Source of the DNA: Antedon bifida
Taxonomy: Eukaryota > Echinodermata > Crinoidea > Comatulida > Antedonidae
Assembly: GCA_963402885.1 (NCBI GenBank)
Contig: OY727098.1
Location: 14,742,717-14,806,716, forward strand
Length of the DNA: 64,000 bases
Direction of reading: 5' to 3'
The notes under the pieces were generated by a model that ran no database searches, was not told where the DNA came from, and worked only from the letters and a program-made list of their open reading frames with translations. Numbering within the stretch: the first letter of the stretch is position 1; each line of letters begins with the position of its first letter. The translations under genes and the position numbers were made by a program. Shown here piece by piece: positions 7,001 through 10,000 of the stretch.

Positions 7001-10000
7001 TTGTAGGTACGCTTCCCATCACATTTTACAGCCGATTTGAAAGATCTGCTACGTAACCTTCTACAAGTAGACTTGACAAAACGGTACGGAAATCTAAAGA
7101 ATGGTGTGAATGATATCAAAGGGCACAAGTGGTTCAGCACTACAGACTGGATTGCAATCTACCAAAAAAGGGTATGTAAACATACAACTTGTTTATTACA
7201 TTTTTTGTATGCGTTGTGTAAAGGTGAATGGGTAAAAATGAAAGGGATTGTATAGTATAATGTCATTTTAATTTTAGTCTAAATAAATATATTTTTAAAC
7301 ACTATTCCTAAATCAGACGTTTCTGAAAACTAGACAGTTTTTTTGGGCTAGCCTAAAGGGCCAATAATTGTGAAAAGAGATGGCCACCTGGACAGACGTA
7401 GAAGACATTTTCAGCTTTTAAGACACCTCAGTCTACCTACATCATATTTGTAATATTTGTTAGTTCACATTTGTTGTCAATGTCATCCCTTGAACAATCC
7501 TTAATAATACTGTTTATTTGCCATCGTAAGGTTTTTTTTTATAAATTCATGATGAAAATAGTAATATACCATAGTATTGTAACAAGTTAGTATCAATTTC
7601 AGACTCTTGTTTGAATATTCTATTAATATAATATTGTTCTTTCTTCTTGGCAATGCATAGAATTGCATTATTAACAATATATTCCAGCTGCTTTTAACTA
7701 TAGCCTAGTCAATGCTTTATTCATAATATAGCTGCTTTACACCATCATAACATTTAATATCATTTTTAAAAAGCTATTAAATCATAAGTAAAATGTTATT
7801 TTTGTGTCATGTTTAGGTTGAAGCATATTCACTACTAAAGGAAGGATGTTTAAACTTCATTTTCATTCTCAATAACTGTACCACCGCTCTAGATGTTACT
7901 GTTTACTCTTTACCTTCTATTTCCCAAACTAATGTAGTGATATGACATCATCATGTCCTTATATAACACAGTACATTTTTTTGTTACATAAAGTTTGATA
8001 GTGTAGACAGCTTTACATCTCACATGTTGTTACACATCATTCCAGGAATAATCGTTCAATTTGTGTTTGTATATTTGTATTTCTATATTTATTTTGTTAA
8101 TGTATTTGTAACAATAATTGTGATAATAATTACTGGTTGATCCTCTGCTACATTAGTGAGAAGGGCAGAAAGGCTAGGTTTAAAACAAAGACAAATAGAC
8201 GTTAAGTTATGAGGAAAGAACCACTAAAAGAACTTTCCCATTCCTATACAGTACTCTAGAAAACCATTTACTAATATTACACAATAACACTTTCTTTCTT
8301 TTTAAACTTGTGTTAAACAGTGCATAGAGACTATTTGTATTTTGCGCTATACAAATTTAAAACCATTAAACAATTAACGTAATATGGAAAGAAACTTTGA
8401 AAGCAGAAAGGCATTTTGTTATGCACTACAGATTGTACCTACACGGTACCTTGCCACCTTCTTTGTGTTTTGCCTATGAATGTAACTAACAATATAGTTT
8501 TCATTGATAGAAAGGCGAATTTGAAAAGTAGAATGCCTTGTGGTTGGCATAAATGGTTTCAAAGTAACTACTAAATAGCATTTTTAATTTTCTATAATAC
8601 TTTATTATTATTATATTTATGTACTTTTCTTCAGATTCAAGCCCCATTCATTCCAGATTGCGGCAAAAAGCTTGGAAGTAGTAAATGCTTTATAAACTAC
8701 CCAGAACAACCACTGGCCGTGTCTAGCACACTATTATATGCTGATCAGTTCACAGGCTTCTAGGTTTAGTAAATCTTGTCAATTCTGGTTGCAAGTATGT
8801 GAAATTCAGTTTAAAAAAAGAGATAACAGATTGACCCTGTGTAATAACAACCATTTAGATTTGTGTGCGACTCCTACATTTCAGAGAAACCAGACATTTA
8901 CCTTTAATTAATCACTGTTTTTCCCCTTTTTTATAATCAAGTTCGTTGACTCCTTAAACTTCACGTCAGAAATAATTGTACTTGTGAACTCGGGCATGAT
9001 GTACTTGATTTGAATTACTAAACATTTGTGCTTTAATGTAGGCTTGTCATAGGAACAGTATCCATACATATTAACATTTGATTTTAATCGTCATAATATT
9101 CTCAATAGAAGTTTTATACCATTGTACATACAGTTGAACCCCTCCTGTGAATCAAACAAATGGAAATACTGTATATGCAATAACACTACAGCCAACGCCT
9201 AAAAGGGAACCTGAAGGTGTCACCTTAATGAGGGGTTTTACTGTGTTATATTAATAATATAAGCTATTGCATTGGAATGTTGTATTAGAAGGTAGAGGAT
9301 GGTATGTTGAGGATAAAAGCACCCTCAAAACTTAGTATTTTTTACTGTGAACTATTTTGAATTAGATTTTACTCATACAACACAAAATACAATTTTTAAA
9401 AATACACAATTTTTAGGATAATATAAGCTAACGAAAAAGGCAATAAAAACATGAGATGAAATTTCATAATAAGTTATCAATAGAGAAACTCAACAGTTCA
9501 ATTCAGAACTAAATGCATGTTGTACCGCAAACTTTATATCAACAAGTTACCAATATCAACAACAACAAAATCATAAAGTAAATTAGATAACAAAAAAGTA
9601 AAAATTGTCATTTTGGTTCTCAAATTCTATGATTCCAAATGATCTTTTTATATAATATTTGCCTTTAAAATATTATTATCTAAAGCTCTGTCTACACTAA
9701 CAAATTTTATGTGACAAAAAAATGTGATGTGCCCATATGTACACAATGATGTCATATCACTACCATATTTGGGCATACCACTGCCATACTTTTTTTGTCA
9801 AACTACTTTTATAGTGTAGACAGAGCTTAAGGATTCAATATTTTTTTGGTTTCATCATTGAAATTTATGACAGGAATGATAAATATTTAAATAAGCTCAT
9901 ATTTTGATGTGACATTTAATTGGATGTAGTTCAAAAATAGTGTACTAACATTAATAGTATCAGTTCTTTCATTTACAAATCACTTTATTTTTCCATTGCA

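Follow-up and report, generated by a model that had tools for sequence, protein, structure and literature searches.

A predicted alternative last exon in the PKA catalytic-subunit gene of the crinoid Antedon bifida would replace the acidic C-tail with a neutral one

Results

The PKA-C locus

The DNA analysed, referred to here as the window, is a 64-kb stretch of the Antedon bifida genome (C11:14742717-14806716), and the genome searched comprised 315.6 Mb in 27 contigs. With human PKA-C as the tblastn query, exons 6-10 of a PKA catalytic-subunit gene were located in the window and the rest of the gene upstream of it, where exons 2-5 are clear; the match to exon 1 (MGNAPTTKKG..., C11:14723071) is weak (E 0.64). 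Ten coding exons, including this weakly matched first one, a conserved core and a FDDYEEE-type tail identify the gene as an orthologue of PRKACA/B (Table 1). Its canonical tail is identical to that of the human protein at 27 of 41 residues, and R56 of the glycine loop is present (GTGSFGR). A genome search with exons 7-10 returned 56 match rows at E<=0.001, four in the PKA-C gene and 52 elsewhere; since the latter are at most 74% identical, a single PKA-C locus is recognised at this sensitivity. The 74% match lies on contig C10 and was judged PRKX-like by its tail.

Table 1. Features of the PKA-C gene. Positions are those of the window unless a contig is given.
Feature	Position	Strand	Remarks
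Exons 1-5	about C11:14723071-14742172		upstream of the window; tblastn with human PKA-C
Exon 6	1070..1196	+	ends placed by splice signals
Exon 7, DFG and activation loop	6027..6122	+	tblastn with human PKA-C
Exon 8	6773..6895	+	tblastn with human PKA-C
Exon 9	7007..7171	+	ends in phase 0; donor AGG/GTATGT common to both tails
Acceptor and pyrimidine-rich tract	8615..8634	+	ends in ttcttcag
Candidate alternative last exon, coding part	8635..8763	+	42 codons and TAG; 129 bases, open, phase 0
Optional 3' part of the candidate exon	8764..8794	+	donor-like CAA/GTATGT after 8794
Candidate poly(A) signal AATAAA	9442..9447	+	motif scan only
Canonical last exon (exon 10)	10551..10676	+	41 codons and TAG

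Downstream of the PKA-C gene, on the same strand, lies a PLAA-like gene with WD40, PFU and PUL domains (47621-55006). Between its PFU and PUL exons, a 20-base unit is repeated about 85 times (52441-54147; repeats 97% alike) and keeps three minus-strand frames open for 594-600 codons. The window also contains a long minisatellite (19344-23575), in which a 32-base unit recurs about 132 times with copies 95% alike, three tandem units of about 1.5 kb that are about 97% alike (57899-62463) and, at 36431-39072, two inverted arms whose three longest matches are 88-96% alike and which consist partly of repeats of about 75-85 bases; this last structure looks like a foldback-type element.

Among the other contigs, C27 (15,844 bases) is the mitochondrion, with long frames open under code 9 and an AT content of 73%. 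On the strand that carries cox1, T makes up 46.8%, A 26.4%, G 15.4% and C 11.4%; nad1, nad2 and nad6 are encoded on the opposite one, and nad4L is flanked by nad4 and nad5 (nad1, nad2 and nad4L were identified by Pfam, the other genes were named by eye). Starfish mitochondria share part of this strand pattern. Passages of PMC8820819 give 46.0, 26.7, 15.9 and 11.4% for T, A, G and C in the feather star Comaster schlegelii, and in those of PMC10013537 nad1, nad2 and nad6 are stated to be on the other strand in a crinoid. By composition and strand pattern, a crinoid source of the contig is likely.

Splice signals of the candidate exon

The original prediction placed a second, homologous last exon between exons 9 and 10. 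Its coordinates, phase, acceptor and list of motifs proved right when 8635-8763 was translated, exon 9 ending in phase 0 at 7171, and the claimed spacing of 1.8 kb is the distance from the alternative stop to the beginning of the canonical exon. The acceptor reads tacttttcttcag/ATT, and 14 of the 20 bases before the exon are pyrimidines, against 12-15 in five other exons of the gene (the count for exon 6 is one base off). The features that mark an alternative last exon are present: a phase-compatible acceptor, an in-frame stop and homology to a constitutive exon.

From these signals, two ways of using the exon in splicing can be inferred. It may be terminal and polyadenylated at a site of its own, for which the AATAAA at 9442 is a candidate signal; no other AATAAA, but weaker variants, occur from the alternative stop to the canonical exon. 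Alternatively, it may be spliced through a donor near 8794. Scored with a donor table, the site at 8794 reached 2.49, ranking 15th among the 512 GTs in 1300-10500, and the donors of exons 6-9 ranged from 1.49 to 8.51. Splicing from 8794 to 10551 would leave the alternative stop 31 bases upstream of the junction. Whether the exon is terminal, with the AATAAA at 9442, or internal, ending at 8794, the protein would be identical.

Homology of the alternative tail to the canonical tail

Two-sequence blastp aligned the canonical and alternative tails with 16/42 identities and one gap (E 8e-8, for a two-sequence search space). A full-length alignment had been claimed, and homology does extend from end to end, with the small correction that a one-residue insertion is needed in the alternative tail; of 41 aligned residues, 16 are identical and 25 differ. 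None of 20,000 shuffled alternative tails reached its global alignment score (z 9.6), and tblastn of the canonical tail against the 64-kb window returned the alternative exon at E 1.5e-4, with the next best match at E 3.3.

The case for homology rests mainly on comparison with exon 10 of this gene itself, because searches with Pfam, the PDB and human PKA-C miss the alternative tail. The canonical tail alone matches Pfam Pkinase_C (PF00433) at 23.3 bits (cut-off 20.9, E 1.1e-4), and no family was returned for the alternative tail alone. A phmmer search of the PDB with the 42 alternative residues alone, run without a canonical-tail control, gave no match at E<=10, and human PKA-C as tblastn query did not recover the exon at E<=10. 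Exons 8 and 9 joined to the alternative tail align end to end with PKA C-alpha chains among the best 60 of 581 matches, a match that exons 8 and 9 carry.

An open frame that looks like a C-tail by accident, or an exon belonging to some other gene, is in our estimate a highly improbable explanation. Short tail-like fragments do arise, such as LEAPLLPKYCTTSDATN in an NDR/LATS-like locus, and a locus on contig C14 (L002) matched at E 0.87. However, the alternative exon matches over its full length, ends at a splice phase and at a stop, was not equalled by any shuffled sequence, is followed only by a far weaker tblastn match in the window, and occupies the expected intron and strand. The C14 match was rejected as a second copy, since human PKA-C searched over L002-L004 (about 10 kb on each side) gave one weak opposite-strand HSP (E 0.72) and no clear kinase exon, and the NDR/LATS-like fragment (contig C12; L022, 1625-1675) was set aside because it runs into a stop shortly afterwards and has no more of the tail. 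Origin from the tail of another kinase was also rejected for the two loci examined, the best E values being 0.53 in the PRKX-like locus L021 and 0.27 in the NDR/LATS-like locus L022 (both labels are our own reading).

Constraint on the exon and age of the duplication

In the one-gap codon alignment of the two exons, identity at codon positions 1, 2 and 3 is 22, 26 and 13 of 41, the third position being the most diverged and the second the least, with the codon differing at 10 of the 16 identical residues. Of 20,000 neutral simulations run to equal nucleotide identity, 1,391 stayed open and none of those was as similar in protein, while the codon-position skew alone was reached in 106; since the canonical exon served as the ancestor and the observed alignment was protein-guided, these figures favour constraint somewhat. 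The pattern indicates that protein-level constraint dominates the history of the alternative exon. Composition, with a GC content of 43% in the exon and 24% and 30% in its flanks, adds weak support, because 6.4% of 1,647 intron windows are equally GC-rich.

Searched together with about 135 bases of each flank, the exon has a single copy in the genome, and an origin as a repeat was rejected on that ground. No similarity better than E 0.5 was found between the flanks of the alternative and canonical exons, indicating that the exon is not a recent copy and that the duplication is old; for the same reason, dating the duplication by flank similarity was abandoned. Dating by shared derived residues was likewise given up for lack of polarity, because residues common to both tails and different in human may go back to the bilaterian ancestor, judging by the fly and worm tails.

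High divergence from the canonical tail, at 25 of 41 residues, might also be expected of a relic, a formerly functional exon that is now disused and has yet to decay, and recent disuse would leave an identical sequence picture. Against this, the frame, acceptor and stop are intact and constraint on the protein dominates the history of the exon, so a relic seems to us quite improbable.

Residues kept and changed in the alternative tail

The alternative tail had been claimed to retain the landmarks of the PKA C-tail and to lose its acidic cluster, and both parts of this claim were borne out. All seven landmarks considered (P313, P316, F327, Y330, S338, F347 and F350 in human numbering) are kept, with a hypergeometric P of 5e-4 for a list that was chosen after the alignment had been seen and drawn from passages of PMC3415842, PMC6143667 and PMC13167742. 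Among the features of an AGC C-tail, the PxxP tether to the C-lobe, F327/Y330, the turn-motif Ser and the terminal FxxF are found; in place of FDxxY/F the sequence is FINY, with Ile at 328. Residues D328, D329, E331, E332 and E333 are replaced by I, N, P, E and Q, leaving one acidic residue, and position 334 is occupied by P. The net charge of the tail changes from -7 in the canonical to 0 in the alternative form. The tail of the PRKX-like kinase, FDDYPEDDW (contig C10; L021 5023-5151), has a proline following the gating Tyr. A proline after Tyr330 alone is therefore not exotic, as it occurs in the same genome.

Published work assigns several roles to this part of the tail. Passages of PMC3415842 describe the active-site tether with the motif FDX(X)Y/F, and according to those of PMC2650257 the F327A mutant of the mouse enzyme showed nearly undetectable activity and low expression, which argues that the FDxxY segment matters. 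In passages of PMC12535202, the acidic residue at 333 of the tail (printed 'Asp333') pairs with R56 of the glycine loop, and ATP in a holoenzyme is stabilised by the FDDY region. Tyr330 contacts the P-3 Arg of the substrate in simulations, in a non-stable manner (passages of PMC4183626); this is the one sourced contact between tail and substrate, and Tyr330 is retained in the alternative tail. No statement of a Glu331 contact was found in passages of some of the papers listed for Glu331 and Asp328 contacts. The sourced effects of tail residues are G-loop tethering and nucleotide/holoenzyme coupling (E333-R56, FDDY). A charge-driven change of substrate choice may also occur.

The same findings could mean that the exon is used and encodes a kinase with little or no activity, titrating regulatory subunits or competing with the normal form. 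The Asp of FDxxY and the charge of the tether are gone, I328, P331, Q333 and P334 stand in the alternative tail, the tether is described with the FDX(X)Y/F motif (passages of PMC3415842) and the F327A mutant is nearly inactive (passages of PMC2650257). We consider such a product unlikely, however, as F327, Y330, S338, FxxF and PxxP are all retained and P331 also has a counterpart in the PRKX-like tail.

Discussion

The alternative exon is well supported as sequence, and its biology is a prediction. Most probably, it is a genuine alternative last exon of PKA-C, an old tandem duplicate of exon 10 that has been kept by selection on the protein and confers a neutral active-site tether. The earlier interpretation is partly supported overall, in that the homologous alternative exon, the landmarks and the loss of the acidic run all stood, as did an echinoderm origin, through the crinoid-like mitochondrial contig.

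An old tandem duplication of exon 10 would have given rise to the alternative last exon, which selection on the protein would then have retained. Joining 7171 to 8635 rather than to 10551 would exchange the last 41 residues (310-350 in human numbering) for 42 others, and this splicing choice could in principle yield two kinds of PKA-C from one gene. The alternative kinase is predicted still to fold and to be activated, because the PxxP, F327, Y330, S338 and FxxF anchors remain, and published residue roles suggest that its tether would be neutral. Without E333 the tail would lose the pairing with R56 that fixes it to the N-lobe, and FDxxY has also lost its D. Closure driven by ATP, and the hold on inhibitor and regulatory subunits that is coupled to ATP, should therefore be weaker or differently tuned. 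We infer from this an alternative kinase that is active but whose closure around ATP differs.

A more speculative proposal, which we advance tentatively and consider doubtful, is that the exon lets splicing tune PKA. With the neutral tail, ATP binding would be uncoupled from high-affinity binding of regulatory subunits and PKI, and one gene would provide a holoenzyme with another cAMP threshold, employed in one particular tissue and conserved across crinoids or echinoderms. A natural second tail in which the anchors are kept and the tether charge is dropped would amount to an evolved mutagenesis experiment. Such a tail would tell the parts of the C-tail that are needed from those open to retuning. 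It could also reveal by what means the kinase is diversified where an animal has one PKA-C gene.

A search of open-licence PubMed Central by title and abstract found, among the matches listed, no description of such an exon in an echinoderm. In passages of a PKA-C survey (PMC3625193), codon numbers of exons 2-10 are identical in many animals, sea urchin included, an equality that the 42 codons of the alternative tail break; passages of a later survey (PMC5526564) follow isoform variation 5' of exon 2. Vertebrate PRKACA and PRKACB resemble the present gene in having alternative isoforms of conserved 10-exon genes, but the variants described arise from alternative 5' exons, where the authors looked, and an alternative exon 10 is unmentioned in the passages concerned (PMC3625193, PMC5526564). 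The main differences between C-alpha and C-beta of vertebrates are in subdomains I and II and in the C-tail (passages of PMC3625193), so that tail divergence among PKA-C forms is not in itself unheard of.

Alternative PKA-C exons had been claimed for two other animals, Aplysia and C. elegans. The Aplysia PKA-C gene has alternative exons, of which no description was found in open-licence PubMed Central among the matches listed. For C. elegans the claim stood, with splicing at both ends in print (passages of PMC3771449): as here, one main gene, kin-1, is diversified by splicing, at the N- and C-termini and into at least 12 isoforms (passages of PMC3771449 and PMC9692727). Two splice variants of PKC-beta are mentioned in PMC7403146. 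The lineage of C. elegans is very distant from that of Antedon bifida, and PRKCB is a PKC rather than a PKA. In vertebrate PRKCB, the alternative last exons of beta-I and beta-II encode the AGC C-tail of one kinase, and both tails bear a phosphorylated hydrophobic motif. The kind of arrangement predicted here is already known, since C-terminal variants of C. elegans PKA-C are in print and PKC-beta provides a second case.
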